Assembly (NCBI GenBank): GCA_028554795.2
Contig: JAPYKE020000537.1
Span: forward strand, 124,001 to 188,000
Direction: 5' to 3'
DNA from: Sinohyriopsis cumingii
Lineage: Eukaryota; Mollusca; Bivalvia; Unionida; Unionidae
DNA length: 64,000 bases
Shown here: positions 1,838-61,000 of the stretch, one piece after another
Layout: each line of letters opens with the position of its first letter
Position numbering within the stretch: the stretch's first letter is position 1
Notes under the pieces: model-generated
Told to the model about the DNA's origin: nothing
Seen by the model: only the letters and a program-made list of their open reading frames with translations
Database searches by the model: none
Made by a program: the position numbers and the translations under genes

Positions 1838-2479
1838 ATACCGTTTGTTAACATTTGCGTGTTTTTCATAGCCGGTAAGCCCTATGGCGCCCCTTAATTT
1901 GTTGTTTCGTCTGCAGGAAAGTCGTCAGGACTATCTTCCTAGGTGGACTCTATCTCCTAGAGATCAAATATCCATAGTGGACTCATGTGAAGACTTATAA
2001 TGGGGGGACTTATGGCTCACATATATATAATCTTACGGCATGTGATCTGCTCGAATTCCTTTATTTAGTCGCGGGACCCCGAGTGGCCGAGTGGTCTAAA
2101 GCGCTCTTCGTTACGGATCACTGCCGTCTCACCTCTGTCTGCGGCGGTTCGAGTCTAAGATTCAGCCATGGTGGGGATGTGAGAAAGCTTGCCAGTAGCT
2201 TCTCCTGGGTCGGTGGTTCTTTCCGGGGTTTTCCGGGTTCTTCCTCCACCATTAATTCTGGCCGCCATGTATAGCCAATCGTGCTGAAAAATGGCGTTAA
2301 ACCCCACAACAAAAACAACAACAACAACAACAATATTTAGTCGCACGTTTCTCGAAATCGGCTGGACGAATTTTCTTTAAATTTTTTCTGCTGTTAGAAA
2401 AGGGTCTTATTTCAAAACGATATAAGCGGCATCGAAATCAAAATCCTCTAAGTAAGGTTTCCATGAGTACAAACTATTA
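1838..2479 (+). repeat. SINE-bearing satellite monomer (642 bp)
   Basis: A normal monomer is interrupted after offset 235 by 261 bp of foreign DNA, then resumes with a second copy of TATTTAGTCGC. Removing the insert and one duplication restores a 370-bp monomer. It is 3 bp longer than the other SINE monomers because its AAC-rich tail is longer (it includes an AAAAAC interruption). Confidence 0.93.
2073..2333 (+). mobile_element. tRNA-derived SINE, copy 1 (261 bp)
   Basis: The head matches the RNA polymerase III internal promoter: A box TGGCCGAGTGG at 2084-2094 and B box GGTTCGAGTCT at 2146-2156. The 51-nt gap suggests an origin from a class II (long variable arm, Leu/Ser-like) tRNA. A pyrimidine-rich body and the motif ATGGCGTTAAACC follow, ending in a CAA/AAC tail. 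Target-site duplications TATTTAGTCGC lie at 2062-2072 and 2334-2344. It encodes no protein and would have needed a LINE for movement. This copy is the most distinct of the left group (CTGCCGTCTC and CAGCCATGGTGGGGATG variants), so it may be an early-diverged branch. Confidence 0.92.
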
Positions 2480-5070
2480 ATACCGTTTGTTAACATTTGC
2501 GTGTTTTTCATAGCCGGTAAGCCCTTTGACGCCCCTTATCTTGCTGTTTCGTCTGCAGGAAATTCGTCAGGACTTTCTTCCTAGGTGGACTCTATCTCCT
2601 AGAGATAAAATATCCATGGTGGACTCATGTGAAGACTTATAATGAGGGGACTAATGACTCACATGTATATAATCTTACGGCATGTGATCTGCTCGACTTC
2701 CATTACTTAGTCGCACGTTTCTCGAAAGCGGCTGGACGGATTTTCTTTAAATTTTTTCTGCTGTTAGAAAAGGGTTTTATTTCAAAACGTCAAAAAGCGG
2801 CATCGAAATCAAAATCCTCTAAGTAAGGTTTCCATGAGTACAAACTATTAATACCGTTTGTTAACATTTGCGTGTTTTTAATAGCCGGTAAGCCCTATGG
2901 CGCCCCTTATTTTGCTTTTTCGTCTGCAGGAAATTCGTCAGGACTATCTTCCTAGGTGGACTCTATCTCCTAGAGATAAAATATCGATGGTGGACTCATG
3001 TGAAGACTTATAAAGAGGGGACTAATGGCTCACTTGTATAGAATCTTACGGCATGTGATCTTCTCGACTTCCTTTATTTAGTCGTCCGTGTCTCGAAAAC
3101 GGCTGGACGAATTTTCTTTAAACTTTTTCTGCTGTTAGAAAAGGGTATTATTTCAAAACGATAGAAGCGGCATCGAAATGAAAGTCCACTAAGTAAGGTT
3201 TCCATGAGTACAAACTATTAATACCGTTTGTTAACATTTGCGTGTTTTTCATAGCCGGTAAGCCCTATGACGCCCCTTAATTTCCTGTTTCGTCTGCAGG
3301 AAATTCGTCACGACTTTCTTCCTAGGTGGACTCTATCTCCTAGAGATGAAATATCCATGGTGGACCCATGTGAAGACTTATAAAGAGGGGACTTATATCT
3401 CACATGTATATAATCTTACGGAATGTTATCTGCTCGACTTCCTTTATTTGGTCGCACGTTTCTCGAAATCGCCTGGACGAAGTTTCTTCAAATTTTTCCT
3501 GCTGTTAGAAAAGTGTCGTATTTCAGATCGATATAAACGACATCGAAATCGAAGTCCTCTATGTAAGGTTTCCATGAGTACAAACTATTAATACCGTTTG
3601 TTAATATTTGCGTGTTTTTAATAGATGGTAAGCCCTTTGAAGCCCCTTATCTTGCTGTTTCGTCTGCAGGAAATTCGTCAGGACTTTCTTCCTAGGTGGA
3701 CTCTATCTCCTAGAGATAAAATATCCATGGTGGACTCATGTGAAGACTTATAAAGAGGGGACTAATGACTCACATGTATATAATCTTACGGCATGTGATC
3801 TGCTCGACTTCCTTTATTTAGTCGTATGTGTCTCGAAGTCGGCTGGACGAATTTTCCTGAAATTTTTTCTGCTGTTAGAAAAGGGTATTATTTCAAAACG
3901 ATATAAGCGGCATCGAAATGAAAATGCAGTAAGTAAGGTTTCCATGAGTACAAACTATTAATACCGTTTGTTAACATTTGCGTGTTTTTCATAGCCGGTA
4001 AGCCCTATGACGCCCCTTAATTTCCTGTTTCTTCTGCAGGAAATTCGTCCGGACTTTCTTCCTAGGTGGACTCTATCTCCTAGAGATAAAATATCCATGG
4101 TGGACCCATGTGAAGACTTATAAAGAGGGGACTTATATCTTACATGTATATAATCTTACGGGATGTTATCTTCTCGACTTCCTTTATTTAGTCGCACGTT
4201 TCTCGAAATCGCCTGGACGAAGTTTCTTCAAATTTTTCCTGCTGTTAGAAAAGGGTCTTATTTCAGATCAATATAAGCGACATCGAAATCAAAGTCCTGT
4301 AAGTAAGGTTTCCATGAGTACAAACTATTAATACCGTTTGTTAACATTTGGGTGTTTTTCATAGCCGGTAAGCCCTATGGCGCCCCTTAATTTGCTGTTT
4401 CGTCTGAAGGAAATTCGTCAGGACTATCTTCCTAGGTGGACTCTATCTCCTAGAGATCAAATATCCATGGTGGACCCATGTGAAGACTTATAAAGAGGGG
4501 ACTAATATCTCACATGTATATAATCCTACGGCATGTGATCTGCTCGAATTCCTTTGTTTAGTCGCACGTGTCTCGAAATCGGCTGGACGAATTTTCTTCA
4601 AATTTTTTCTGCTGTTAGAAAAGGGTCTTATTTCAAAACGATATAAGCGGCATCGAAATCAAAGTCTTCTAAGTAAGGTTTCCATGAGTACAAACTATTA
4701 ATACCGTTTGTTAATGTTTGCGTGTTTTTCATAGATGGTAAGCCGTTTGAAGCCCCTTATCTTGCTGTTTCGTCTGCAGGAAATTCGTCAGGACTTTCTT
4801 CCTAGGTGGACTCTATCTAATAGAGATAAAATATCCATGGTGGACCCATGTGAAGACTTATAAAGAGGGGACTAATGGGTCACTTGTATATAATCTTACG
4901 GCATGTGATTTACTCGACTTCCTTTATTTAGTCGTACGTGTCTAGAAATCGGCTGAACGAATTTTCTTTAAATTTTTTCTGCTGTTAGAAATGGGTCTTA
5001 TTTCAGATCGATATAAGCGACATCGAAATCAAAATCCTGTAAGTAAGGTTTCCATGAGTACAAACTATTA
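2480..5070 (+). repeat. Satellite monomers 2480-5070
   Basis: Monomers start at 2480, 2851, 3221, 3591, 3961, 4331 and 4701. The first is 371 bp (extra A in the CGTCAAAAAGCGG region). Monomers 3591 and 4701 begin with the TAGATGGTAAGC variant; 3961 has GTTTCTTCTGCAGG and GGACTTATATC. These variants recur in the same relative order near 11588-12697, so this stretch is a diverged relative of the HOR to its right. Confidence 0.9.
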
Positions 5071-5230
5071 ATACCGTTTGTTAACATTTGCGTGTTTTTC
5101 ATAGCCGGTAAGCCCTATGGCGCCCCTTATTTTGCTGTTTCCTCTGAAGGAAATTCGTCAGGACTTTCTTCCTAGGTGGACTCTATTACCTAGAGATAAA
5201 ATATCCGTGGTGGACTCATGTGAAGACTTA
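5071..5230 (+). repeat. Internally deleted satellite monomer (160 bp)
   Basis: The monomer starts normally but jumps from GAAGACTTA (about offset 160) straight to ATACCGTTTG of the next monomer at 5231. That leaves 160 bp instead of 370, a 210-bp deletion. The trinucleotide TTA is present on both sides of the breakpoint in intact monomers, which fits a microhomology-mediated or slippage event. It is the only large deletion I see in the window. Confidence 0.93.
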
Positions 5231-5970
5231 ATACCGTTTGTTAACATTTGCGTGTTTGTCATTGCCGGTAAGCCCTATGGCGCCCCTTATTTTGCTGTTT
5301 CCTCTGAAGGAAATTCGTCAGGACTTTTTTCCTTGGTGGACTCTATCTCCTAGAGATAAAATATCCATGGTGGACTCATTTGAAGACTTATAAAGAGGGG
5401 ACTAATGACTCACATGTATGTAATCTTACGGAATGTGATCTGCTCGACTTCCTTTATTAAGTCGCACGTTTCTCGAAATCGCCTGGACGAATTTTCTTCA
5501 AATTTTTCCTGCTGTTAGAAATGGGTCTTATTTCAGATCGATATAAGCGACATCGAAATCAAAATCCTGTAAGTAAGGTTTCCATGAGTACAAACTATTA
5601 ATACCGTTTGTTAACATTTGCGTGTTTTTCATAGCCGGCAAGCCCTATGACGCCCCTTATTTTGCTGTTTCGTCTGCAGGAAATTCGTCAGGACTTTCTT
5701 CCTAGGTGGACTCTATCTAAAAGAGATAATATATCCATGGTGGACTCATGTGAAGACTTATAAAGAGGGGACTAATGACTCACATGTATATAATCATACG
5801 GCATGTGATCTACTCGACTTCCTTTATTTAGTTGCACGTTTCTCGAAATCGGCTGGACGAATTTTCTTCAAATTTTTCCTGCTGTTTGAAAAGGGTCTTA
5901 TTTCAGAACAATATAAGCGACATCGAAATCAAAGTCCTGTAAGTAAGGATTCCATGAGTACAAACTATTA
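5231..5970 (+). repeat. Two satellite monomers before the 4.6-kb HOR
   Basis: Monomers start at 5231 and 5601. The 5601 copy carries GTAAGGATTCC near its end and CTGTTTGAAAAG. This type nearly always lies directly upstream of a SINE monomer, and closely related copies occur at 9839 and 10209. Confidence 0.9.
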
Positions 5971-6205
5971 ATACCGTTTGTTAACATTTGCGTGTTTTTG
6001 ATAGCCGCTAAGCCCTATGGCTCCCCTTAATTTGCTGTTTCGTCTGAAGGAGAGTCGTCAGGACTATCTTCCTAGGTGGACTCTATCTCCTAGAGATCAA
6101 ATATCCATGGTTGACTCATGTGAAGACTTATAATGAGGGGACTAATGGCTCACATATATATAATCTTACGGCATGTGATCTGCTCGAATTCCTTTATTTA
6201 TTCGC

Positions 6206-6463
6206 GGGACCCCGAGTGGCCGAGTGGTCTAAAGCGCTCTTCGTTACGGATCACTGCCATCTCACCTCTGTCTGCGGCGGTTCGAGTCTAAGATTCAGCC
6301 AAGGTGGGCATGTGAGAAAGCTTGCCAGTAGCTTCTCCTGGGTCGGTGGTTCTTTCCGGGGTTTTCCGGGTTCTTCCTCCACCATTAATTCTGGCCGCCA
6401 TGTATAGCCAATCGTGCTGAAAAATGGCGTGAAACCCCACCACAACAACAACAACAACAACAA
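6206..6463 (+). mobile_element. tRNA-derived SINE, copy 2
   Basis: A box at 6217-6227, B box GGTTCGAGTCT at 6279-6289. The flanking duplications are TATTTATTCGC at 6195-6205 (one G-to-T change) and TATTTAGTCGC at 6464-6474. The end reads GCGTGAAACCCCACC, a change shared with copy 4, which marks them as sister copies produced by duplication of the surrounding satellite block. Confidence 0.92.
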
Positions 6464-8324
6464 TATTTAGTCGCACGTTTTCCGAAATCGGCTGGACGAA
6501 TTTTCTTTAAATTTTTTCTGCTGTTAGGAAAGGGTCTTATTTCAAAACGATATAAGCAGCATCGAAATCAAAATCCTCTAAGTAAGGTTTCCATGAGTAC
6601 AAACTATTAATACCTTTTGTTAACATTTGCGTGTTTTTCATAGCCGGTAAGCCCTATGGCGCACCTTATTTTGCTGTTTCGTCTGCAGGAAATTCGTCAG
6701 GACTTTCTTCCTAGGTGGACTCTATCTGATAGAGATAAAATATCCATGGTGCACCAATGTGAAGACTTATAAGGAGGGGACTAATATCTCACATGTATAT
6801 AATCTTACGGCAAGTGATCTTCTCGACTTCCTTTATTTCGTCGCACGTTTCTCGAAATCGCCTGGTCGAATTTTCTTCAAATTTTTCCTGCTGTTAGAAA
6901 AGTGTCTTATTTCAGAACGATATAAAGGACATCGAAATCGAAGTCCTCTATGTAAGGTTTCCATGAGTACAAACTATTAATACCGTTTGTTAATATTTGC
7001 GTGCTTTTAATAGATGGTAAGCCCTTTGAAGCCCCTTATCTTGCTGTTTCGTCTGCAGGAAATTCGTCAGGACTTTCTTCCTAGGTGGACTCTATCTCCT
7101 AGAGATAAAATATCCATGGTGGACTCATGTGAAGACTTATAAAGAGGGGACTAATGACTCACATGTATATAATCTTACGGCATGTGATCTGCTCGACTTC
7201 CTTTACTTAGTCGTACGTTTCTCGAAAGCGGCTAGACGAATTTTCTTTAAATTTTTTCTGCTGTTAGAAAAGGGTCTTATTTCAAAACGATAAAAGCGGC
7301 ATCGAAATGAAAATCCAGTAAGTAAGATTTCCATGAGTACAAACTATTAATACCGTTTGTTAACATTTGCGTGATTTTCATAGCCGGTAAGCCCTATGAC
7401 GCCCCTTAATTTCCTGTTTCTTCTGCAGGAAATTCGTCAGGACTTTCTTCCTAGGTGGACTCTATCTCCTAGAGATAAAATATCCATGGTGGACCCATGT
7501 AAAGACTTATAAAGAGGGGACTTATTTCTCACATGTATATAATCTTACGGAATGTTATCTGCTCGACTTCCTTTATTTAGTCGCACGTTTCTCGAAATCG
7601 CCTGGACGAATTTTCTTCAAGTTTTTCCTGCTGGTAGAAAAGGGTCTTATTTCAGATCGATATAAGCGACATCGAAATCAAAGTTCTCTATGTAAGGTTT
7701 CCATGAGTACAAACTATTAATACCGTTTGTTAACATTTGCGTGTTTTTCATAGCCGGTAAGCCCTATGACGCCCCTTATTTTGCTGTTTCCTCTGAAGGA
7801 AATTCTTCAGGACTAGCTTCCTAGGTGGACTCTATCTCCTAGAGGTAAAATATCCATGGTGGACTCATGTGAAGAGTTATAAAGAGGGGACTAATGGCTC
7901 ATTTGTATATAATCTTACGGCATGTGATCTGCTCGACTTCCTTTATTTAGTCGTACGTGTGTCGAAATCGGCTGGACGAATTTTCTTCAAATTTTTTCTG
8001 CTGTTAGAAAAGGGTCTTATTTCATAACAATATAAGAGGCATCGAAATCAACGTCCTGTAAGTAAGGATTCCATGAGTACAAACTATTAATACCGTTTGT
8101 TGACATTTGCGTGTTTTTCAAAGCCGGTAAGCCCTATGGCGCCTCTTAATTTGCTGTTTCGTCTGCAGGAAAGTCGTCAGGACTATCTTCCTAGGTGGAC
8201 TCTATCTCCTAGAGATCAAATATCCATGGTGGACTCATGTGAAGACTTATAATGAGGGGACTAATGGCTCACATGTATATAATCTTACGGCATGTGATCT
8301 GCTCGAAGTCCTTTATTTAGTCGC

Positions 8325-8582
8325 GGGACCCCGAGTGGCAGAGTGGTCTAAAGCGCTCTTCGTTACGGATCACTGCCATCTCACCTCTGTCTGCGGCGGT
8401 TCGAGTCTAAGATTCAGCCAAGGTGGGCATGTGAGAAAGCTTGCCAGTAGCTTCTCCTGGGTCGGTGGCTCTTTCCGGGGTTTTCCGGGTTCTTCCTCCA
8501 CCATTAATTCTGGCCGCCATGTATAGCCAATCGTGCTGAAAAATGGCGTAAAACCCCACAACAACAACAACTACAACAACAA
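8325..8582 (+). mobile_element. tRNA-derived SINE, copy 3
   Basis: The A box at 8336-8346 has one change (TGGCAGAGTGG), which keeps the core GAGTGG; B box at 8398-8408. The tail is interrupted by ACTACAAC and the upstream flank reads CGAAGTCC; both are shared only with copy 5. Duplications: TATTTAGTCGC at 8314-8324 and 8583-8593. Confidence 0.92.
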
Positions 8583-10813
8583 TATTTAGTCGCACGTTTC
8601 TCGAAATCGGCTGGACGAATTTTCCTTAAATTTCTTCTGCTGTTAGAAAAGGGTCTTATTTCAAAACGATATAAGCAGCATCGAAATCAAAATCCTCTAA
8701 GTAAGGTTTCCATGAGTACAAACTATTAATACCGTTTGTTAACATTTGCGTGTTTTTCATAGCCGGTAAGCCCTATGGCGCCCCTTATTTTGCTGTTTCG
8801 TCTGCAGGAAATTCGTCAGGACTTTCTTCCTAGGTGGACTCTATGTCCTAGAGATAAAATATCCATGGTGGACCCATGTGAAGACTTATAAAGAGGGGAC
8901 TAATATCTCACATGTATATAATCTTACGGCATGTGATCTGCTTGACTTCCTTTATTTCGTCGCACGTGTCTCGAAATCGGCTGAAGGAATTTTCTTCAAA
9001 TTTTTCCTTCTGTTAGAAAAGGGTCTTATTTCATAACGATATAAGAGGCATCGAAATCAAAATCCTCTATGTAAGGTTTCCATGAGTACAAACTATTAAT
9101 ACCGTTTGTAAACCTTTGCGTGTTTTTCATAGCCGGTAAGCCCTATGACGCCCCTTATTTTGCTGTTTAGTCTGCAGGAAATTCGTCAGGACTTTCTTCC
9201 TAGGTGGACTCTATCTCCTAGAGATAAAATATCCATGGTGGACCCATGTGAAGACTTATAAGGAGGGGACTAATATCTCACATGTATATAATCTTACGGC
9301 ATGTGATCTGCTCGACTTCCTTTATTTCGTCGCACGTGACTCGAGATCGGCTGGACGAATTTTCTTCAAATTTTTCCTGCTGTTAGAAAAGGGTCTTATT
9401 TCAGAACGATATAAGTGACATCGAAATCAATATCCTCCAAGTAAGATTTCCATGAGTACAAACTATTAATACCGTTTGTTAACATTTGCGTGTTTTTCAT
9501 AGCCGGTAAGCCCTATGGGGCCCCTTATTTTGCTGTTTCGTCTGCAGGAAATTCGTCAGGACTTTCTTGGTAGGTGGACTCTATCTCCTAGAGATAAAAT
9601 ATCCATGGTGGACCCATGTGAAGACTTATAAAGAGGGGACTAATATCTCACATGTATATAATCTTACGGAATGTGATCTGCTCGACTTCCTTTATTTAGT
9701 CGCACGTTTCTCGAGATCGCCTGGACGAATTTTCTTCAAATTTTTCCTGCTGTTAGAAAAGGGTCTAATTTCAGATCGATATAAGCGACATCGAAATCAA
9801 AATCCTCTATGTAAGGTTTCCATGAGTACAAACTATTAATACCGTTTGTTAACATTTGCGTGTTTTTCATAGCCGGTAAGCCCTATGACGCCCCTTATTT
9901 TGCTGTTTCGTCTGCAGGAAATTCGTCAGGACTTTCTTCCTAGGTGGACTCTATCTAATAGAGATAAAATATCCATGGTGGACTCATGTGAAGACTTATA
10001 AAGAGGGTACTATTGACTCACATGTATATAATCTTACGGCATGTGATGTGCTCGACTTCCTTTATTTAGTCGCACGTTTCTCGATATCGGCTGGACGAAT
10101 TTTCTTCAAATTTTTCCTGCTGTTTGAAAAGGGTCTTATTTCAGAACAATATAAGCGACATCGAAATCAAAGTCCTGTAAGTAAGGATTCCATGAGTACA
10201 AACTATTAATACCGTTTGTTAACATTTGCGTGTTTTTCATAGCCGGTAAGCCCTATGGCTCCCCTTAATTTGCTGTTTCGTCTGCAGGAAATTCGTCAGG
10301 ACTTTCTTCCTAGGTGGACTCTATCTAATAGAGATAAAATAACCATGGTGGACTCATGTGAAGACTTATAAAGAGGGTAGTATTGACTCACATGTATATA
10401 ATCTTACGGCATGTGATGTGCTCGACTTCCTTTATTTAGTCGCACGTTTCTCGAAATCGGCTGGACGAATTTTCTTCAAATTTTTCCTGCTGTTTGAAAA
10501 GGGTCTTATTTCAGAACAATATAAGCGACATCGAAATCAAAGTCCTGTAAGTAAGGATTCCATGAGTACAAACTATTAATACCGTTTGTTAACATTTGCG
10601 TGTTTTTCATAGCCGCTAAGCCCTATGGCTCCCCTTAATTTGCTGTTTCGTCTGCAGGAAAGTCGTCAGGACTATCTTCCTAGGTGGACTCTATCTCCTA
10701 GAGATCAAATATCCATGGTTGACTCATGTGAAGACTTATAATGAGGGGACTAATGGCTCACATATATATAATCTTACGGCATGTGATCTGCTCGAATTCC
10801 TTTATTTAGTCGC

Positions 10814-11071
10814 GGGACCCCGAGTGGCCGAGTGGTCTAAAGCGGTCTTCGTTACGGATCACTGCCATCTCACCTCTGTCTGCGGCGGTTCGAGTCTAAG
10901 ATTCAGCCAAGGTGGGCATGTGAGAAGGCTTGCCAGTAGCTTCTCCTGGGTCGGTGGCTCTTTCCGGGGTTTTCCGGGTTCTTCCTCCACCATTAATTCT
11001 GGCCGCCATGTATAGCCAATCGTGCTGAAAAATGGCGTGAAACCCCACCACAACAACAACAACAACAACAA
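10814..11071 (+). mobile_element. tRNA-derived SINE, copy 4
   Basis: A box at 10825-10835, B box at 10887-10897. It is the sister of copy 2 (GCGTGAAACCCCACC end; same mutated downstream flank CGTTTTCCGAAATC). A private change gives AAAGCGGTCTTC after the A box. Duplications: TATTTAGTCGC at 10803-10813 and 11072-11082. Confidence 0.92.
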
Positions 11072-13302
11072 TATTTAGTCGCACGTTTTCCGAAATCGGC
11101 TGGACGAATTTTCTTTAAATTTTTTCTGCTGTTAGGAAAGGGTCTTATTTCAAAACGATATAAGCAGCATCGAAATCAAAATCCTCTAAGTAAGGTTTCC
11201 ATGAGTACAAACTATTAATACCTTTTGTTGACATTTGCGTGTTTTTCATAGCCGGTAAGCCCTATGGCGCACCTTATTTTGCTGTTTCGTCTGCAGGAAA
11301 TTCGTCAGGACTTTCTTCCTAGGTGGACTCTATCTGATAGAGATAAAATATCCATGGTGCACCATTGTGAAGACTTATAAGGAGGGGACTAATATCTCAC
11401 ATGTATATAATCTTACGGCAAGTGATCTTCTCGACTTCCTTTATTTCGTCGCACGTTTCTCGAAATCGCCTGGTCGAATTTTCTTCAAATTTTTCCTGCT
11501 GTTAGAAAAGTGTCTTATTTCAGATCGATATAAACGACATCGAAATCGAAGTCCTCTATGTAAGGTTTCCATGAGTACAAACTATTAATACCGTTTGTTA
11601 ATATTTGCGTGTTTTTAATAGATGGTAAGCCCTTTGAAGCCCCTTATCTTGCTGTTTCGTCTGCAGGAAATTCGTCAGGACTTTCTTCCTAGGTGGACTC
11701 TATCTCCTAGAGATAAAATATCTATGGTGGACTCATGTGAAGACTTATAAAGAGGGGACTAATGACTCACATGTATATAATCTTACGGCATGTGATCTGC
11801 TCGACTTCCTTTACTTAGTCGCACGTTTCTCGAAAGCGGCTGGACGAATTTTCTTTAAATTTTTTCTGCTGTTAGAAAAGGGTCTTATTTCAAAACGACA
11901 AAAGCGGCATCGAAATCAAAATCCTGTAAGTAAGATTTCCATGAGTACAAACTATTAATACCGTTTGTTAACATTTGCGTGTTTTTCATAGCCGGTAAGC
12001 CCTATGACGCCCCTTATTTTGCTGTTTCGTCTGCAGGAAATTCGTCAGGACTATCTTCCTAGGTGGACTCTATCTCCTAGAGATAAAATATCCATGGTGG
12101 ACTCATGTGAAGACTTATAAAGAGGGGACTAATGGGTCACTTGTGTATAATCTTACGGCATGTGATCTGCTCGACTTCTTTTATTTAGTCGTATGTGTCT
12201 CGAAATCGGCTGGACGAATTTTCCTTAAATTTTTTCTGCTGTTAGAAAAGGGTATTATTTCAAAACGATATAAGCGGCATCGAAATGAAAATCCAGTAAG
12301 TAAGGTTTCCATGAGTACAAACTATTAATACCGTTTGTTAACATTTGCGTGTTTTTCATAGCCGGTAAGCCCTATGACGCCCCTTAATTTCCTGTTTCTT
12401 CTGCAGGAAATTCGTCAGGACTTTCTTCCTAGGTGGACTCTATCTCCTAGAGATAAAATATCCATGGTGGACCCATGTGAAGACTTATAAAGAGGGGACT
12501 TATATCTCACATGTATATAATCTTACGGAATGTTATCTGCTCGACTTCCTTTATTGAGTCGCACGTTTCTCGAAATCGCCTGGACGAATTTTCTTCAAAT
12601 TTTTCCTGCTGGTTGAAAAGCGTCTTATTTCAGATCGATATAAGCGACATCGAAATCAAAGTTCTCTATGTAAGGTTTCCATGAGTACAAACTATTAATA
12701 CCGTTTGTTTACATTTGCGTGTTTTTCATAGCCGGTAAGCCCTATGACGCCCCTTATTTTGCTGTTTCCTCTGAAGAAAATTCTTCAGGACTTTCTTCCT
12801 AGGTGGACGCTATCTCCTAGAGGTAAAATATCCATGGTGGACTCATATGAAGAGTTATAAAGAGGGGACTAATGGCTCACTTGTATATAATCTTACGGCA
12901 TGTGATCTGCTCGACTTCCTTTATTTAGTCGTACGTGTCTCGAAATCGGCTGGACGAATTTTCTTTAAATTTTTTCTGCTGTTAGAAAAGGTTCTTGTTT
13001 CATAACGATATAAGAGGCATCGAAATCAAAGTCCTGTAAGTAAGGATTCCATGAGTACAAACTATTAATACCGTTTGTTAACATTTGCGTGTTTTTCAAA
13101 GCCGGTAAGCCCTATGGCGCTCCTTAATTTGCTGTTTCGTCTGCAGGAAAGTCGTCAGGACTATCTTCCTAGGTGGACTCTATCTCCTAGAGATCAAATA
13201 TCCATGGTGGACTCATGTGAAGACTTATAATGAGGGGACTAATGGCTCACATGTATATAATCTTACTGCATGTGATCTGCTCGAAGTCCTTTATTTAGTC
13301 GC

Positions 13303-47427: not shown

Positions 47428-50384
47428 ATACCGTTTGTTAACATTTGCGTGTTTTTCATAGCCGGTAAGACCTATGGCGCCCCTCAATTTGCTGTTTCGT
47501 CTGCAGGAAATTCGTCAGGACTTTCTTCCTAGGTGGACTCTATCTCCTAGAGATAAAATATCCATGGTGGACTCATGTGAAAACTTATAAAGAGGGGACT
47601 AATTTCTCACTTGTATATAATCTTACGGCATGTGATCTGCTCGACTTCCTTTATTTCGTCGCATGTTTCTCGAAATAGGCTGGACGAATTTTCTTTAAAT
47701 TTTTTCTGCTGTTAGAAAACAGTCTTATTTCAAAACGGTATAAGCGGCATCGAAATCAAAATCCCCTAAGTATGGTTGCCATGAGTACAAACTATTAATA
47801 CCGTTTGTTAACATTTGCGTGTTTTTCATAGCCGGTAAGGCCTATGGCGCCCATTATTTTGCTGTTTCGTCTGCAGGAAATTCGTCAGGACTTTCTTGCT
47901 AGGTGGACTCTATCTCCTAGAGATAAAATATCCATGGTGGACCCATGTGAAGACTTACAAAGAGGGGACTAATATCTCACATGTATATAATCTTACGGAA
48001 TGTGATCTGCTCGACTTCCTTTATTTAATCGCACGTTTCTCGAAATGGCCTGGACGAATTTTCTTTAAATTTTTACTGCTGTTAGAAAAGGGTCTTATTT
48101 CAAAACCATATAAGCGGCATCGAAATCAAAATCCTCTAAGTAAGGTTTCCATGAGTACAAACTATTAATACCGTTTGTTAACATTTGCGTGTTTTCATAG
48201 CCGGTAAGCCCTATGTCGCCCATTATTTTGCTGTTTCGTCTGCAGGAAATTCGTCAGGACTTTCTTCGTAGGTGGACTCTATCTCCTAGAGATAAAATAT
48301 CCATGGTGGACCCATGTGAAGACTTATAAGGAGGGGACTAATGTCTCACATGTATATTATCTTACGGCATGATATCTGCTCGACTTCCTTTATTTCGTCG
48401 CACGTGTCTCGAAATCGGCTGAAGGAATTTTCTTCAAATTTTTCCTGCTGTTAGAAAAGGGGCTTATTTCAGAATGATATAAGCGAAATCGAAATTAAAG
48501 TCCTCCAAGTAAGATTTCCATGAGTACAAACTATTAATACCGTTTGTTAACATTTGCGTGTTTTTCATAACCGGTAAGCCCTATGGCGCCCCTTATTTTG
48601 CTGTTTCGTCTGCAGGAAATTCGTCAGGACTTTCTTCCTAGATGGACTCTATCTCCTAGAGATAAAATATCCATGGTGGTCCCATGTGAAGACTTATAAA
48701 GAGGATACTAATATCTCAAATGTATATAATCTTACGGAATGTGGTCTGCTCGACTTCCTTTATTTAGTCGCACATTTCTCGAAATCGCCTGGACGAATTT
48801 TCTTCAAATTTTTCCTGTTGTTAGAAAAGGGTCTTATTTCAGATCGATATAAGCGACATGGAAATCAAAATCCTCTATGTAAGGTTTCCATGAGTACAGA
48901 CTATTAATACCGTTTTTGACATTTGCGTGTTTTTCATAGCCGGTAAGCCCTATGGCGCCCCTTATTTTGCTTTTTCGTCTGCAGGAAATTCGTCAGGACT
49001 TTCCTCCTAGGTGGACTCTATCTAACAGAGATAAAATATCCATGGTGGACTCATGTGAAGACTTATAAAGAGGGTTCTAATGACTCACATGTATATAATC
49101 TTACGGCATGTGATCTGGTCGACTTCCTTTATTTAGTCGCACGTTCCTCGAAATGGGCTGGACGAATTTTCTTCAAATTTTTCCTGCTGTTAGAAAAGGG
49201 TCTTATTTCAGAACGATATAAGCGACATCGAAATCAAAATCCTGTAAGTAAGGTTTCCATGAGTACAAACTATTAATACCGTTTGTTAACATTTGCGTGT
49301 TTTTCATAGCCGGTAACCCCTATGGCGCCCCTTAATTTGCTCTTTCGTCTGCAGGAAATTCGTCAGGACTATCTTCCTAGGTGGACTCTATCTCCTAGAG
49401 ATCAAATATCCATGGTGGACCCATGTGAAGACTTATAAAGAGGGGACTAATATCTCACTTGTATATAATCTTACGGAATGTGATCTGCTCGACTTCCTTT
49501 ATTTAGTCGCACGTGTCTCGAAATCGGCTTGACGAATTTTCTTTAAATTTTTTCTGCTGTTAGAAAAGGGTTTTGTTTCAAAACGATATAAGCGGCATCG
49601 AAATCAAAGTCCTCTAAGTATGGTTGCCATGAGTACAAACTATAAATACCGTTTGTTAACATTTGCGTGTTTTTCATAGCCGGTAAGCCCTATGACGCCC
49701 CTTAATTTCCTGTTTCGTCTGCAGGAAATTCGTCAGGACTTTCTTCGTAGGTGGACTCTATCTCCTAGAGATAAAAAATCCATGGTGGACCCATGTGAAG
49801 ACTTATAAGGAGGGGACAAATATCTCACTTGTATATAATCTTACGGCATGTGATCTGCTCGACTTCCTTTATTTAGTCGTACGTGTCTCGAAATCGGCTG
49901 GACGAATTTTCTTCAAATTTTTTCTGCTGTTAGAAAAGGGTCTTATTTCAAAACGGTATAAGCGGCATCGAAATCAATGTCCTCTAAGTATGGTTTCCAT
50001 GAGTACAAACTATTAATACCGTTTGTCAACATTTGCGTGTTTTTCATAGCCGGTAAGCCCTATGACGCCCCTTATTTTGCTGTTTCGTCTGCAGGAAATT
50101 CGTCAGGACTTTCTTCCTAGTGGACTCTATCTCCTAGAGATAAAATGTCCATGGTGGACTCATGTGAAAACTTATAAAGAGGGGACTAATTTCTCACTTG
50201 TATATAATCTTACGGCATGTGATCTGCTCGACTTCCTTTATTTAGTCGTCCGTGTCTCGAAAACGGCTTGACAAATTTTCTTTAAATTTTTTCTGCTGTT
50301 AGAAAAGGGTCTTATTTCAAAACGATATAAGCGGCATCGAAATCAAAATCCTCTAAGTAAGGTTCCCATGAGTACAAACTATTA
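47428..50384 (+). repeat. Duplicated 2.96-kb block, copy 2
   Basis: Eight monomers: 47428, 47798, 48168, 48537, 48907, 49276, 49646, 50016. This is the partner of the block at 41141. A private change is the start of monomer 48907, CCGTTTTTGACATTTG, where bases of GTTTGTTAAC are lost; it is 369 bp. Confidence 0.9.
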
Positions 50385-53300
50385 ATACCGTTTGTTAACA
50401 TTTGCGTGTTTTTCATAGCCGGTAAGCCCTATGACGCCCCTTATTTTGCTGTTTCGTCTGCAGGAAATTCGTCAGGACTTTCTTGGTAGGTGGACTCTAT
50501 CTCCTAGAGATAAAATATCCATGGTGGACTCATGTGAAGACTTATAAGGAGGGGACTAATGACTCACATGTATATTATCTTACGGCATGTGATCTGCTCG
50601 ACTTCCTTTACTTAGTCGCACGTTTCTCGAAAGCGGCTGGACGAAATTTCTTTAAATTTTTTCTGCTGTTAGAAAAGGGTCTTATTTCAGAACGATAGAA
50701 GAGGCATCGAAATCAAAATCATCTAAGTAAGGTTTCCATGAGTACAAACTATTAATACCGTTTGTTAACGTTTGCGTGTTTTTCATAGCCGGTAAGCCCT
50801 ATGGCGCCCCTTATTTTGCTGTTTCGTCTGCAGGAAATTCGTCAGGACTTTCTTGGTAGGTGGACTCTATCTCCTAGAGATAAAATATCCATGGTGGACT
50901 CATGTGAAGACTTATAAAGAGGGGACTAATGACTCACATGTATATAATCTTACGGAATGTGATCTGCTCTACTTCCTTTACTTAGTCGCACGTTTCTCGA
51001 AATAGGATGGACGAATTTTCTTTAAATTTTCTGTGCTGTTAGAAAAGGGTCTTATTTCAAAACGATATAAGGGGCATCGAAATCAAAGTCCTCTAAGTAA
51101 GGTTTCCATGAGTACAAACTATTAATACCGTTTGTTAACATTTGCGTGTTTTTCATAACCGTAAGCCCTATGGCGCCCCTTATTTTGCTTTTTCGTCTGC
51201 AGGAAATTCGTCAGGACTTTCTTCGTAGGTGGACTCTTTCTAATAGAGATAAAATATCCATGGTGGACTCATGTGAAGACTTATAAAGAGGGTTCTAATG
51301 ACTCACATGTATATAATCTTACGGCATGTGATCTGCTCGACTTCCTTTAATTAGTCGCACGTTCCTCGAAATCGGCTGGACGAATTTTCTTCAAATTTTT
51401 CCTGCTGTTAGAAAAGGGTCTTATTTCAGAACGATATAAGCGACATCGAAATCAAAATTCTGTAAGTAAGGTTTCCATGAGTGCAAACTATTAATACCGT
51501 TTGTTAACATTTGAGTGTTTTTTATAGCCGGTAAGCCCTATGGCGCCCCTTAATTTGCTGTTTCGTCTGCAGGAAATTCGTCAGGACTATCTTCCTAGGT
51601 GGACCCTATCTCCTAGAGATCAAATATCCATGGTGGACCCATGTGAAGACTTATAAAGACGGGACTAATATCTCACATGTATATAATCTTACGGAATGTG
51701 ATCTGCTCGACTTCCTTTATTTAGTCGTACGTGTCTCGAAATCGGCTGACGAATTTTCTTTAAATTTTTCCTGCTGTTAGAAAAGGGTCTTATTTCAAAA
51801 CGATATAAGCGGCATCGAAATCAAAGTCCACTAAGTATGGTTGCCATGAGTACAAATCATTAATACCGTTTGTTAACATTTGCGTGTTTTTCATAGCCGG
51901 TAAGCCCTATGGCGCCCATTATTTTGCTGTTTCGTCTGCAGGAAATTCGTCAGGACTTTCTTCGTAGGTGGACTCTATCTCCTAGAGATAAAATATCCAT
52001 GGTGGACCCATGTGAAGACTTACAAGGAGGGGACTAATGGCTCACTTGTATATAATCTTACGGCATGTGATCTGCTCGACTTCCTTTATTTAGTCGTACA
52101 TGTCTCGAAATCGGCTGGACGAATTTTCTTTAAATTTTTACTGCTGTTAGAAAAGGGTCTTATTTCAAAACCATATAAGCGTCATCGAAATCAAAATCCT
52201 CTAATTAAGGTTTCGATGAGTACAAACTATTAATACCGTTTGTTAACATTTGCATGTTTTCATAGCCGGTAAGCCCTATGCCGCCCATTATTTTGCTGTT
52301 TCGTCTGCAGGAAATTCGTCAGGACTTTCTTCCTAGGTGGACTCTATCTCCTAGAGATAAAATATCCATGGTGGACCCATGTGAAGACTTATGAGGAGGG
52401 GACTAATGTCTCACATGTATATAATCTTACGGCATGTCATCCGCTCGACTTCCTTTATTTCGTCGCATGTGTCTCGAAATCGGCTGAAGGAATTTTCTTC
52501 AAATTTTTCCTGCTGTTAGAAAAGGGGCTTATTTCAGAATGATATAAGCGACATCGAAATTAAAATCTTCCAAGTAAGATTTCCATGAGTACAAACTATT
52601 AATACCGTTTGTTAACATTTGCGTGTTTTTCATAGCCGGTAAGCCCTGTGGCGCCCTTATTTTGCTGTTTCGTCTGCAGGAAATTCGTCAGGACTTTCTT
52701 CCTAGGTGGACTCTATCTCCTAGAGATAAAATATCCATGGTGGTCCCATGTGAAGACTTATAAAGAGGATACTAATATCTCACATGTATATAATCTTACG
52801 GAATGTGATCTGCTCGACTTCCTTTATTTAGTCGCACGTTCCTCGAAATCGGCTGGACGAATTTTCTTCAAATTTTTCCTGCTGTTAGAAAAGGGTCTTA
52901 TTTCAGAACGATATAAGCGACATCGAAATCAAAATCCTGTAAGTAAGGTTTCCATGAGTACAAACTATTAATACCGTTTGTTAACATTTGCGTGTTTTTA
53001 ATAGCCGGTAAGCCCTATGGCGCCCGTTAATTTGCTGTTTCGTCTGCCGGAAAATCGTCAGGACTATCTTCCTAGGTGGACTCTATCTCCTAGAGATCAA
53101 ATATCCATGGTGGACCCATGTGAAGACTTATAAAGAGGGGACTAATATCTCACATGTATATAATCTTACGGAATGTGATCTGCTCGACTTCCTTTATTTA
53201 GTCGTACGTGTCTCGAAATCGGCTGACGAATTTTCTTTAAATTTTTCCTGCTGTTAGAAAAGGGTCTTATTTCAAAACGATATAAGCGGCATCGAAATCA

Positions 53301-54819
53301 AAGTCCTCTAAGTATGGTTTCGATGAGTACAAACTATTAATACCGTTTGTTAACATTTGCGTGTTTTTCATAGCCGGAAAGCCCTATGGGGCCCATTATT
53401 TTGCTGTTTCGTCTGCAGGAAATTCGTCAGGACTTTCTTCGTAGGTGGACTCTATCTCCTAGAGATAAAATATCCATGGTGGACCCATGTGAAGACTTAT
53501 AAGGAGGGGACAAATATCTCACTTGTATATAATCTTACGGCATGTGATCTGCTCGACTTCCTTTATTTAGTCGAACGTGTCTCGAAATCGGCTGGACGAA
53601 TTTTCTTTAAATTTTTACTGCTGTTAGAAAAGGGTCTTATTTCAAAACGATATAAGCGGCATCGAAATCAAAATCCTCTAAGTAAGGTTTCCATGAGTAC
53701 AAACTATTAATACCGTTTGTTAACATTTGCGTGTTTTTCATAGCCGGTAAGCCCTATGACGCCCATTAATTTCCTGTTTCGTCTGCAGGAAATTCGTCAG
53801 GACTTTCTTCCTAGGTGGACTCTATCTCCTAGAGATAGAATATCCATGGTGGACTCATGTGAAAACTTATAAAGAGGGGACAAATATCTCACATGTATAT
53901 AATCTTACTGCATGTGATCTGCTCGACTTCCTTTATTTCGTAGCACGTTTCTCGAAATCGGCTGGACGAATTTTCTTCAAATTTTTCCTGCTGTTAGAAA
54001 AGGGTCTTATTTCAGAACGATATGAGCGACATCGAAATCAAAGTTCTCCATGTAAGGTTTCCATGAGTACAATCTATTAATACCGTTTGTTAACATTTGC
54101 GTGTTTTTCATAGATGGTAAGCCCTTTGACGCCCCTTATCTTGCTGTTTCGTCTGCAGGAAATTCGTCAGGACTTTCTTCGTAGGTGGACTCTATCTCCT
54201 AGAGATAAAATATCCATGGTGGACTCATGTGAAGACTTATAAAGAGGGGACTAATGACTCACATGTATATAATCTTACGGAATGTGATCTGCTCGACTTC
54301 CTTTACTTAGTCGCACGTTTCTCGAAATAGGATGGACGAATTTTCTTTAAATTTTCTGTGCTGTTAGAAAAGGGTCTTATTTCAGATCGATATAAGCGAC
54401 ATCGAAATCAAAATCCTCTATCTAAGGTTTCCATGAGTACAAACTATTAATACCTTTTGTTAACATTGGCGTGTTTTTCATAGCCGGTAAGCCCTATTGG
54501 GCCCCTTATTTTGCTTTTTCGTCTGCAGGAAATTCGTCAGGACTTTCTTCCTAGGTGGACTCTATCTAACAGAGATAAAATATCCATGGTGGACTCATGT
54601 TAAGACTTATAAAGAGGGTTCTAATGACTCACATATATATAATCTTACGGTATGTGATCTGCTGGACTTCCTTTATTTAGTCGCACGTTTCTCGATATCG
54701 GCTGGACGAATTTTCTTCAAATTTTTCCTGCTGTTAGAAAAGGGTCTTATTTCAGAACGATATAAGCGACATCGAAATCAAAATCCTGTAAGTAAGGTTT
54801 CCATGAGTACAAACCATTA
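50385..54819 (+). repeat. SINE-free satellite core, right part
   Basis: Monomers start at 50385, 50755, 51125, 51494, 51863, 52233, 52602, 52971, 53340, 53710, 54080 and 54450. Monomer 52233 is the ATGCCGCCCATT type and 52602 the GAGGATACTAATATC type, the same pair as at 31899/32268, 34486/34855, 41881/42250 and 48168/48537. This pair marks the beginning of the core HOR phase. Confidence 0.87.
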
Positions 54820-57800
54820 ATACCGTTTGTTAACATTTGCGTGTTTTTCATAGCCGGTGAGCCCTATGGCGCCCCTTAATTTGCTGTTTCGTCTGCAGGA
54901 AATTCGTCAGGACTATCTTCCTAGGTGGACTCTATCTCCTAGAGATCAAATATCCATGGTGGACTCATGTGAAGACTTATAATGAGGGGACTAATGGCTC
55001 ACATGTATATAATCTTACGGCATGTGATCTCCTCGACTTCCTTTATTTAGTCGCGGGACCCCGAGTGGCCGAGTGGTCTAACGCACTCTTCGTTAGGGAT
55101 CACTGCCATCTCACCTCTGTCTGCGGCGATTCGAGTCTCAGATTAAGCCAAGGTGGGCATGTGAGAAAGCTTGCCAGTAGCTTCTCCTGGGTCGGTCTTT
55201 CTTTCCGGGGTATTCCGGGTTCTTCCTCCACCATTAATTCTGGCCGCCATGTATAGCCAATCGTGCTGAAAAATGGCGTTAAACCACACAACAACAACAA
55301 CAACAACAACAATATTTAGTCGCACGTTTCTCGAAATCGGCTGGACGAATTTTCTTCAAATTTTTTCTCCTGTTAGATAAGGGTCTTGTTTCAAAACGAT
55401 ATAAGCGGCATCGATATCAAAATCCTCTAAGTTAGGTTTCCATGAGTACAATCTATTAATACCGTTTGTAAACATTTGCGTGTTTTTCATAGCCGGTAAG
55501 CCCTATGGCGCCCCATATTTTGCTGCTTCGTCTGCAGGAAATTCGTCAGGACTTTCTTCCTAGGTGGACTCTATCTCCTAGAGATAAAATATCCATGGTG
55601 GACCCATGTGAAGACTTATAAAGAGGGGACTAATGGCTCACTTGTATATAATCTTACGGCATGTGATCTTCTCGACTTCCTTTATTTAGTCGTCCGCGTC
55701 TCTAAAACGGCTGGAGGAATTTTCTTTATATTTTTTCTGCTGTTAGAAAAGGGTCTTATTTCAAAACGGTATAAGCGGCATCGAAATCAAAATCTCCTAA
55801 GTAAGGTTTCCATGAGTAGAAACTATTAATACCGTTTGTTAACATTTGCGTGTTTTTCATAGCCGGTAAGCCCTATGACGCCCCTTAATTTCCTGTTTCG
55901 TCTGCAGCAAATTCGTCAGGACTTTCCTCGTAGGTGGACTCTATCTCCTAGAGATAAAATTTCCATGGTGGATCCATGTGAAGACTTATAAGGATGGGAC
56001 AAATATCTCACATGTATATAATCTTACGGCATGTGATCTGCTCGACTTCCTTTATTTCGTCGCACGTTTCTCGAAATCGCCTGGACGAATTTTCTTCACA
56101 TTTTTCCTGCTGTTAGAAAAGGGTCTTATTTCAGATCGATATAAGCGACATCGAAATCAATATCCTCTATGTAAGGTTTCCATGTGTACAAACTATTAAC
56201 ACCGTTTGTTGACATTTGCGTGTTTCTCATAGATGGTAAGCCCTTTGACGCCCCTTATCTTGCTGTTTCGTCAGGAGGAAATTCGTCAGGACTTTCCTCG
56301 TAGGTGGACTCTATCTCCTAGAGATAAAATATCCATGGTGGACTCATGTGAAGACTTATAAAGAGGGGACTAATGACTCACATGTAAATAATCTTACGGC
56401 ATGTGATCACCTCGACTTCCCTTACTTAGTCGCACGTTTCTCGAAAGCGGCTGGACGAATTTTCTTTAAATTTTTTCCGCTGTCAGAAAAGGGTCTTATT
56501 TCAGAACGATATAAGCGACATCGAAATCAAAGTCCTCTAAGTAAGGTTTCCATGAGTACAAACTATTAATACCGTTTGTTAACATTTGCGTGTTTTTCAT
56601 AGCCGGTAAGCCCTATGGCGCCCCTTATTTTGCTTTCTCGTCTGCAGGAAATTCGTCAGGACTTTCTTCCTAGGTGGACTCTATCTCCTAGAGATAAAAT
56701 ATCCATGGTGGACTCATGTGCAGACTTATAAAGAGGGGACTAATGACTCACATGTATATAATCATACGGCATGTGATGGCTCGACTTCCTTTATTTAGTC
56801 GCACGTTTCTCGAAATCGCCTGGACGAATTTTCTTCAAGTTTTTCCTGCTGTTAGAAAAGGGTCTTATTTCAGAACGATATAAGCGACATCGAAATCAAA
56901 ATCCTCTAAGTAAGGTTTGCATGAGTACAAACTATTAATACCCTTTGTTAACATTTGCGTGTTTCTCATAACCGGTAAGACCTATGGCGCCCCTTAATTT
57001 CCTGTTTCGTCTGCAGGAAATTCGTCAGGACTATCTTCCTAGGTGGACTCTATCTCCTAGAGATAAAATATCCATGGTGGACTCATGTGAAGACTTATAA
57101 AGAGGGGACTAATGGCTCACTTGTATATAATCTTACTGCATGTGATCTGCTCGACTTCCTTTATTTAGTCGTCCGTGTCTCGAAATCGGCTGGACAAATT
57201 TTCTTTAAATTTTTTCTGGTGTTAGAAAATTGTCTTATTTCAAAACGATATAAGCGGCATCGAAATCAAAGTCCTCTAAGTAAGGTTTCCATGAGTACAA
57301 ACTATTAATACCGTTTGTTAACATTTGCGTGTTTTTCATAGCCGGTAAGCCCTATGGAGGCCCTTATTTTGCTGTTTCGTCTGCGGGAAATTCCTCAGGA
57401 CTTTCTTCCTAGGTGGACTCTATCTCCTAGAGATAAAATATCCATGGTGGCCCCATGTGAAGACTTATAAAGAGGGGACTAATATCTCACATGTATATAA
57501 TCTTACGGAATGTGATCTGCTCGACTTCCTTTACTTAGTCGCACATTTCTCGAAATCGCCTGGACGAATTTTCTTCAAATTTTTCCTGCTGTTAGAAAAG
57601 GGTCTTATTTCAGATCGATATAAGCGACATCGAAATCAAAATCCTCTATGTAACGTTTCCATGAGCACAAACTATTAATACCGTTTGTTAACATTTGCGT
57701 GTTTTTCATAGCCGGTAAGCCCTATGACGCCCCTTATTTTCCTGTTTCGTCTGAAGGAAATTCGTCAGGACTTTCTTCCTAGGTGGACTCTATCTCCTAG

Positions 57801-58047
57801 AGATAAAATATCCATGGTGGACTCATGTGAAAACTTATAAAGAGGGGACTAATGACTCACATGTATATACTCTTACGGCATGTGATCTGCTCGACTTCCT
57901 TTATTTAGTCGCACGTTTCTCGAAATCGGCTGGACGAATTTTGTTCAAATTTCTCCTGCTGTTAGAAAAGGGTCTTATTTCAGAACGATATAAGCGAGAT
58001 CGAAATCAAAATCCTGTAAGTAAGGTTTCCATGAGTACAAACTATTA
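54820..58047 (+). repeat. Eight-monomer higher-order repeat C, unit 1 (3,228 bp)
   Basis: Monomers start at 54820 (SINE), 55459, 55829, 56199, 56569, 56938, 57308 and 57678. All features recur exactly 3,228 bp later. Rare shared marks: CATATTTTGCTGCTTCG (55459), TAAAATTTCCATGG (55829), TTTCGTCAGGAGG (56199), CATGTGATGGCTCG (56569), and CTGCGGGAAATTCC with ATGGAGGCCC (57308). I see roughly ten differences over the unit, so identity should exceed 99%. The left 120 bp of 54820 differs from 58048, so the true breakpoint is inside that monomer. Confidence 0.93.
55055..55312 (+). mobile_element. tRNA-derived SINE, copy 9 (variant lineage)
   Basis: A box TGGCCGAGTGG at 55066-55076 is intact. The B box at 55128-55138 reads GATTCGAGTCT: the second G, paired with C in the T-arm of tRNAs, is now A, which should weaken TFIIIC binding. 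Other marks of this lineage are CTAACGCACTC, GTTAGGGATC, CAGATTAAGCC, GGGGTATTCCGG and AAACCACACAAC. A private change is GTCGGTCTTTC. Duplications: TATTTAGTCGC at 55044-55054 and 55313-55323. Confidence 0.92.
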
Positions 58048-61000
58048 ATACCGTTTGTTAACATTTGCGTGTTTTTCATAGCCGGTAAGCCCTATGGTGC
58101 CCCTTATTTTGCTGTTTCGTCTGCAGGAAATTCGTCAGGACTTTCTTCCTAGGTGGACTCTATCTCCTAGAAATCAAATATCCATGGTGGACTCATGTGA
58201 AGACTTATAATGAGGGGACTAATGGCTCACATGTATATAATCTTACGGCATGTGATCTCCTCGACTTCCTTTATTTAGTCGCGGGACCCCGAGTGGCCGA
58301 GTGGTCTAACGCACTCTTCGTTAGGGATCACTGCCATCTCACCTCTGTCTGCGGCGATTCGAGTCTCAGATTAAGCCAAGGTGGGCATGTGAGAAAGCTT
58401 GCCAGTAGCTTCTCCTGGGTCGGTGGTTCTTTCCGGGGTATTCCGGGTTCTTCCTCCACCATTAATTCTGGCCGCCATGTATAGCCAATCGTGCTGAAAA
58501 ATGGCGTTAAACCACACAACAACAACAACAACAACAACAATATTTAGTCGCACGTTTCTCGAAATCGGCTGGACGAATTTTCTTCAAATTTTTTCTCCTG
58601 TTAGATAAGGGTCTTGTTTCAAAACGATATAAGCGGCATCGATATCAAAATCCTCTAAGTTAGGTTTCCATGAGTACAATCTATTAATACCGTTTGTAAA
58701 CATTTGCGTGTTTTTCATAGCCGGTAAGCCCTATGGCGCCCCATATTTTGCTGCTTCGTCTGCAGGAAATTCGTCAGGACTTTCTTCCTAGGTGGACTCT
58801 ATCTCCTAGAGATAAAATATCCATGGTGGACCCATGTGAAGACTTATAAAGAGGGGACTAATGGCTCACTTGTATATAATCTTACGGCATGTGATCTGCT
58901 CGACTTCCTTTATTTAGTCGTCCGCGTCTCTAAAACGGCTGGAGGAATTTTCTTTATATTTTTTCTGCTGTTAGAAAAGGGTCTTATTTCAAAACGGTAT
59001 AAGCGGCATCGAAATCAAAATCTCCTAAGTAAGGTTTCCATGAGTAGAAACTATTAATACCGTTTGTTAACATTTGCGTGTTTTTCATAGCCGGTAAGCC
59101 CTATGACGCCCCTTAATTTCCTGTTTCGTCTGCAGCAAATTCGTCAGGACTTTCCTCGTAGGTGGACTCTATCTCCTAGAGATAAAATTTCCATGGTGGA
59201 TCCATGTGAAGACTTATAAGGATGGGACAAATATCTCACATGTATATAATCTTACGGCATGTGATCTGCTCGACTTCCTTTATTTCGTCGCACGTTTCTC
59301 GAAATCGCCTGGACGAATTTTCTTCACATTTTTCCTGCTGTTAGAAAAGGGTCTTATTTCAGATCGATATAAGCGACATCGAAATCAATATCCTCTATGT
59401 AAGGTTTCCATGTGTACAAACTATTAACACCGTTTGTTGACATTTGCGTGTTTCTCATAGATGGTAAGCCCTTTGACGCCCCTTATCTTGCTGTTTCGTC
59501 AGGAGGAAATTCGTCAGGACTTTCCTCGTAGGTGGACTCTATCTCCTAGAGATAAAATATCCATGGTGGACTCATGTGAAGACTTATAAAGAGGGGACTA
59601 ATGACTCACATGTAAATAATCTTACGGCATGTGATCACCTCGACTTCCCTTACTTAGTCGCACGTTTCTCGAAAGCGGCTGGACGAATTTTCTTTAAATT
59701 TTTTCCGCTGTCAGAAAAGGGTCTTATTTCAGAACGATATAAGCGACATCGAAATCAAAGTCCTCTAAGTAAGGTTTCCATGAGTACAAACTATTAATAC
59801 CGTTTGTTAACATTTGCGTGTTTTTCATAGCAGGTAAGCCCTATGGCGCCCCTTATTTTGCTTTCTCGTCTGCAGGAAATTCGTCAGGACTTTCTTCCTA
59901 GGTGGACTCTATCTCCTAGAGATAAAATATCCATGGTGGACTCATGTGCAGACTTATAAAGAGGGGACTAATGACTCACATGTATATAATCATACGGCAT
60001 GTGATGGCTCGACTTCCTTTATTTAGTCGCACGTTTCTCGAAATCGGCTGGACGAATTTTCTTCAAATTTTTCCTGCTGTTAGAAAAGGGTCTTATTTCA
60101 GAACGATATAAGCGACATCGAAATCAAAATCCTCTAAGTAAGGTTTGCATGAGTACAAACTATTAATACCCTTTGTTAACATTTGCGTGTTTTTCATAAC
60201 CGGTAAGACCTATGGCGCCCCTTAATTTCCTGTTTCGTCTGCAGGAAATTCGTCAGGACTATCTTCCTAGGTGGACTCTATCTCCTAGAGATAAAATATC
60301 CATGGTGGACTCATGTGAAGACTTATAAAGAGGGGACTAATGGCTCACTTGTATATAATCTTACTGCATGTGATCTGCTCGACTTCCTTTATTTAGTCGT
60401 CCGTGTCTCGAAATCGGCTGGACAAATTTTCTTTAAATTTTTTCTGGTGTTAGAAAATTGTCTTATTTCAAAACGATATAAGCGGCATCGAAATCAAAGT
60501 CCTCTAAGTAAGGTTTCCATGAGTACAAACTATTAATACCGTTTGTTAACATTTGCGTGTTTTTCATAGCCGGTAAGCCCTATGGAGGCCCTTATTTTGC
60601 TGTTTCGTCTGCGGGAAATTCCTCAGGACTTTCTTCCTAGGTGGACTCTATCTCCTAGAGATAAAATATCCATGGTGGCCCCATGTGAAGACTTATAAAG
60701 AGGGGACTAATATCTCACATGTATATAATCTTACGGAATGTGATCTGCTCGACTTCCTTTACTTAGTCGCACATTTCTCGAAATCGCCTGGACGAATTTT
60801 CTTCAAATTTTTCCTGCTGTTAGAAAAGGGTCTTATTTCAGATCGATATAAGCGACATCGAAATCAAAATCCTCTATGTAACGTTTCCATGAGCACAAAC
60901 TATTAATACCGTTTGTTAACATTTGCGTGTTTTTCATAGCCGGTAAGCCCTATGACGCCCCTTATTTTCCTGTTTCGTCTGAAGGAAATTCGTCAGGACT

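Follow-up and report, generated by a model that had tools for sequence, protein, structure and literature searches.

How did a short interspersed element (SINE) come to occupy exactly one base of a satellite monomer ten times over within 64 kb? The question is raised by a stretch of 64,000 nucleotides from the bivalve Sinohyriopsis cumingii (contig JAPYKE020000537.1, hereafter C537, positions 124001-188000; "the window"), which lies wholly inside an array of 370-bp tandem repeats. A sequence-only reading of the window had proposed a single retroposition followed by spread through the array. Our analysis favors this answer, to which we give a probability of about 0.93: the SINE copies have a single origin and were multiplied by the array itself, with unequal exchange responsible for the recent steps.

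The part of C537 that was read (C537:1-248000, out of 459,371 bp) is satellite from the left end of the contig to about C537:188579, with one 19.8-kb element as its sole interruption; to the right of that point, two weak satellite fragments occur amid other sequence. Spacing is 368-374 bp for 432 of the 448 monomer intervals, and the alignment comprises 434 monomers of 340-380 bp each, with a median pairwise difference of 9.2%. Fourteen of these monomers carry the SINE and 420 are empty. The 14 copies extend over C537:101,199-182,540, ten within the window and four upstream (starting at C537:101199, 106271, 116876 and 119256); all are 252-261 bp long, in the + orientation and in the same monomer column, and those of the window are 94.6-100% identical to the first among them. 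The features of the window are listed below in window coordinates, the start of each SINE on C537 being given in brackets and used afterwards as its name.

1..64000, + strand, 370-bp satellite array, which contains the whole window
2073..2333, + strand, SINE copy (C537:126073), 261 bp, with the duplication at 2062-2072 and 2334-2344
6206..6463, + strand, SINE copy (C537:130206), 5' duplication with one substitution, TATTTATTCGC
8325..8582, + strand, SINE copy (C537:132325)
10814..11071, + strand, SINE copy (C537:134814), block-duplicate sister of the copy at 6206
13303..13560, + strand, SINE copy (C537:137303), block-duplicate sister of the copy at 8325
14680..14937, + strand, SINE copy (C537:138680), first of a triplicated 7-monomer block
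17539..17796, + strand, SINE copy (C537:141539), second of the triplicated 7-monomer block
20397..20654, + strand, SINE copy (C537:144397), third of the triplicated 7-monomer block
55055..55312, + strand, SINE copy (C537:179055), first of a tandemly duplicated 8-monomer block
58283..58540, + strand, SINE copy (C537:182283), second of the tandemly duplicated 8-monomer block
55055..58282, + strand, SINE-to-SINE unit of the 8-monomer tandem duplication, 3,228 bp

The insertion of all ten window copies at one base and in one orientation, as previously read, is confirmed and extends to all 14 on the contig; the number then attached to the site, offset 235, varies with the cut chosen for the monomer, and the insertion point falls after column 222 when the cut is made at ACATTTGCG. 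Each SINE is flanked on both sides by the 11-bp duplication TATTTAGTCGC. That all ten share this duplication holds for the 3' side, which is exact in 10/10 window copies and 14/14 on the contig, and nearly so for the 5' side, exact in 9/10 and 11/14, respectively, the three others (among them the copy at 6206) having one substitution. The estimate of about 155 empty neighbors proved accurate, since 165 full-length monomers were counted in the window, 155 empty and ten with the SINE. The distinct 639-bp SINE-bearing unit (370 + 258 + 11 bp) described from the sequence stands for the copies of 258 bp and fails for the first window copy, with its 261-bp SINE.

It had also been suggested to look for the same SINE at non-satellite loci, and a dispersed family was indeed found there. 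The search yielded 5003 first-look candidates, of which 40 were scored; the 41 matches listed comprise 27 dispersed copies, one short fragment and all array copies but 179055 (13 of 14). The element is short and dispersed, with variable target-site duplications and (CAA)n-like tails. Among the 21 non-array copies retained for comparison, a flanking duplication of another sequence is clear by eye in 15 and ambiguous in six; two pairs of these copies are identical with identical flanks, so each pair represents duplicates of one insertion. The element is probably tRNA-derived, judging by the A- and B-box-like motifs TGGCCGAGTGG (13/14 array copies) and GGTTCGAGTCT (12/14); ARAGORN gave no hit in the window, and Rfam none up to E = 1 at window positions 2040-2360. 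The non-satellite flank, at C537:197864-241840, holds seven members of the family that are partial or more diverged (70-88%).

An independent test of the single origin comes from the SINE sequences. A tree was built from 35 of them, namely all 14 from the array, 20 of the 27 listed dispersed copies and one array-flank copy (88% identical); in it the array SINEs form one clade against the 21 non-array copies, with support of 99/97 and in 98% of 200 bootstrap trees. The comparison copies are biased towards close relatives of the array SINEs; the clade is thereby tested strictly, while the sample is poorly suited to estimating age. The array is fixed for three alleles that are rare or absent outside it: G at column 98 (14/14 vs 0/21), T at column 186 (14/14 vs 1/21) and A at column 206 (14/14 vs 3/21). 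Together with the one site occupied by 14/14 copies, the clade and its private alleles support one retroposition event, later multiplied by the array.

These results bear on a rival account in which a site-specific retroposon inserted repeatedly and independently at a hotspot. One site and one strand for all copies are what a target-specific element would give, but the array copies are monophyletic and have private alleles, the target sites of the dispersed copies vary, and rare flank alleles are common to the SINE-bearing monomers, so that we reject repeated insertion as the main process and regard it as scarcely credible. The genome-wide searches weigh against it as well. In the 2.9-Gb assembly, the 24-bp 5' junction with up to three mismatches occurs at 15 places (none for the reversed control), 14 of them at 0-1 mismatch, all in this array, and one with three mismatches on C9. 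The latter was discarded as a dispersed SINE, since no satellite match was found there and its position coincides with the beginning of a 76% match to the SINE. The 3' junction occurs at 26 places (eight for the reversed control), 14 at 0-1 mismatch, again all in this array, and 12 at three mismatches; neither junction was thus found at 0-1 mismatch outside this array in the whole assembly. The junction is restricted to one array despite 3510 exact genomic sites of the 11-mer TATTTAGTCGC (923 for the reversed control), which means that many empty targets exist elsewhere. At one such locus, C1:8847061-8852126, the 11-mer recurs at five places every 1,263-1,265 bp in sequence that does not match the 370-bp monomer (E 1e-5), and probably belongs to another tandem repeat. 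SINEs at different target sites within the array had been named beforehand as one observation that would contradict a single insertion. BLAST of the SINE against C537:1-248000 (E up to 1e-3) returned the 14 junction copies and seven matches, all seven beyond the array end at about 188,579; on this part of C537 the array thus yielded no SINE inserted elsewhere in the monomer, other arrays of the satellite not having been surveyed.

Flank alleles that are rare among the 420 empty monomers predominate in the SINE-bearing ones: -152 G in 12/14 (0% of empty monomers), -72 T in 11/14 (0.7%) and -18 A in 12/14 (1.7%). In a tree of the 434 full monomers the SINE label changes once, on a branch with 41% support, and in the left-half tree (222 columns) twice, against about 13.7 changes for shuffled labels. 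The comparison of SINE and flank histories that had been called for gave a mixed result: the SINE distances follow those of the right flank (r = 0.70; 8 of 9999 permutations as high) and of the full monomer (r = 0.56; 11 of 9999), but those of the left flank only weakly.

The flanks also hint at the monomer that received the insertion. Of the six alleles that typify SINE-bearing monomers, three (-176 A, -140 A and -108 C) occur together in the empty monomers 110369, 128344, 159238, 161086, 167003, 169592, 173289 and 175507, and also in 176984, which has another base at -152. Copy 178833 adds -72 T to this trio, the other lineages mostly adding -152 G and -18 A; -18 A is also present in several empty monomers, and copy 182061 has neither -176 A nor -140 A. 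This suggests an insertion into a monomer of the -176 A/-140 A/-108 C type, the 179055/182283 lineage being nearest to the start. The SINEs of that pair differ from the other 12 at eight sites, where the dispersed copies side with the 12 in 20-21 of 21 cases; faster evolution of the pair, which this might indicate, is not claimed here.

How the SINE then spread is clearest for the most recent steps. The copies 116876 and 119256 form a 5-monomer tandem pair with a shared tract of 1,900 bp at 0.1% difference, and the triplicated 7-monomer block (138680, 141539 and 144397) shares a tract of 3,639 bp at 0.8%. For the 8-monomer tandem pair 179055/182283, the tract measures 2,959 bp at 0.2% under a strict edge setting, with edge phases of -111 and -112, as expected from one crossover; a looser setting gives 3,178 bp at 0.4%, the left edge then lying in the previous monomer. 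Looser duplicates are seen at offsets of 13 monomers (101199/106271) and of 11-12 monomers, the latter linking 130206 and 132325 to 134814 and 137303. Once sister copies are grouped, about seven SINE lineages remain, with SINE divergence over the first 230 columns of 0-1.7% within and 0.9-6.1% between them, and within-lineage pairs share up to ten monomers of flank. Because sister SINEs sit inside co-duplicated blocks, recent spread can be attributed to unequal exchange, and the 370-bp register is preserved at most junctions. Of the two processes first proposed, unequal exchange or conversion, exchange hence stands for the recent blocks, either being admissible for the oldest steps. The "several higher-order repeat expansions" read from the sequence hold in kind and not as a regular higher-order repeat, since the block offsets are irregular (5, 7, 8 and 11-13 monomers).

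We propose that one member of the dispersed family inserted once into one 370-bp monomer, presumably through the retroposition machinery of a long interspersed element, thereby duplicating TATTTAGTCGC. The SINE, which we suppose to be neutral, would then have been carried along with its monomer and the neighboring ones by homologous, in-register unequal exchange between misaligned copies of the array. Early exchange would have produced the approximately seven lineages, whose shared flanks would since have eroded to about 1-2 monomers; blocks duplicated later, including three tandem ones of 5-8 monomers, would have carried the SINE further.

Several observations pull against this history. Five label changes are required on the right-half monomer tree, built on few columns (148), where shuffled labels require about 13.7, and left-flank distances follow those of the SINE only weakly (r = 0.26, a value reached in 671 of 9999 permutations); a single origin would produce such a pattern if exchange later affected the flanks. 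Site 145 of the SINE conflicts with two other sites in the four-gamete test, which may reflect recurrent change or exchange inside the SINE. Edge phases agree within a base for 179055/182283 only, and at the stricter setting, those of the two other tandem blocks being about 50-60 bp apart. The SINEs of 116876 and 119256 are identical, and the assembly may be duplicated there. This pair, with its 1,900-bp tract at 0.1%, is what an assembler falsely duplicating one SINE-bearing unit would leave; as an explanation of the whole set, such an artefact is very improbable, given 13 distinct SINE sequences among 14 copies and irregular flanks and spacings. Lastly, flanks of different lineages resemble each other more than random monomers do only between about -740 and +370 bp, a pattern that short gene-conversion tracts could produce too.

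This last point leads to a rival that likewise starts from a single insertion and departs from the favored account in the oldest steps only: early spread would have proceeded mainly by gene conversion into empty monomers, exchange accounting for the recent blocks alone. The shared flank of about 1-2 monomers between lineages, as opposed to up to ten within them, and the irregular spacings between lineages speak for it. The side that is shared varies, however, with monomer -1 at 2-4% in one subset and monomer +1 at about 5-6% in another, and this variation by lineage fits longer shared segments trimmed by later crossovers. We therefore consider early conversion unlikely, though a serious contender, and prefer exchange for the oldest steps as well, at roughly two to one over conversion. 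A preferred phase of exchange within the monomer was also considered, the raw edges of duplicated tracts appearing to cluster left of the insertion site; it was rejected after merging shared edges, which left 16/25 in the interval -222..-37 against 53% expected by simulation (p = 0.32).

The SINE zone covers 81 kb and ends 6 kb from the right edge of the array; no SINE was found in the 100 kb of array to its left. We infer that the zone is older than the left end of the array because its monomers differ more. At the left end, C537:1-25600 consists of about seven copies of a 10-monomer higher-order repeat, which differ by 0.2% and lack the SINE. It is conceivable, although we hold it only tentatively, that exchange since the insertion was confined to about 80 kb beside the array edge, the left 100 kb, including this higher-order repeat, having turned over separately. 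If so, one locus-private SINE would measure both the range and the rate of exchange inside a satellite.

Other features of the array were recorded along the way. A length variant, with 432 and then 250 bp between monomer seed starts, occurs five times at C537:34487-53443 and marks a further duplicated block, and a partial monomer of 160 bp at window 5068-5390 repeats part of its neighbor. The interrupting element, outside the window at C537:58787-78551, is Polinton/Maverick-like (19,765 bp) and represents one insertion in the part of the array that was read; it is bordered by a 6-bp duplication, GACTAA, and has terminal inverted repeats of about 330 bp. Its open reading frames match DNA_pol_B_2, an integrase with a chromodomain and Pox_A32, together with a sub-threshold match to adenovirus protease (E = 0.0088), and another contains a BIR domain.

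Studies of how satellite arrays turn over mostly have to rely on near-identical monomers, in which there is little to follow. Here the junction identifies the insertion and dispersed copies provide a root, which fixes the starting point of the lineages; all 14 copies being of the same age, the differences among them record later events. The 24-base 5' junction, confined at 0-1 mismatch to one array in the 2.9-Gb assembly, could moreover be typed in populations.

The ATHILA elements of Arabidopsis centromere satellites offer a precedent, having been duplicated after integration together with the surrounding satellite, in that case with a long terminal repeat element in a plant centromere. A literature search without the host name retrieved no description of the present SINE-satellite unit in titles or abstracts, which says little. 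Satellite 1 of Xenopus and Hy/Pol III of Hydromantes appear in a table of PMC9659126 as satellites derived from a SINE-like element; both resemble our case in having a tRNA-SINE-like sequence inside a tandem repeat, the difference being that the element is the source of the satellite there, whereas 14/434 monomers carry it here. Closer parallels come from human arrays. For the alpha-satellite of chromosome 2 (D2Z1), PMC12350169 (preprint PMC11451754) describes most mobile-element insertions as duplications of the same element, typically peripheral; the mussel array likewise has copies of a single insertion, grouped towards one of its edges. The human insertions are polymorphic L1 and Alu elements, with about three L1HS per array on average in D2Z1 (PMC12350169), whereas the mussel array, known from sequence alone, holds 14 copies that are 0-6% apart and rooted by dispersed copies. 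The same source mentions Alu insertions used to follow turnover of the Yq12 DYZ1/DYZ2 arrays, in another satellite and host and between individuals rather than, as here, within one assembly (PMC12350169). The process is of the same kind as in human alpha-satellite and Yq12, in another satellite and another host (PMC12350169).
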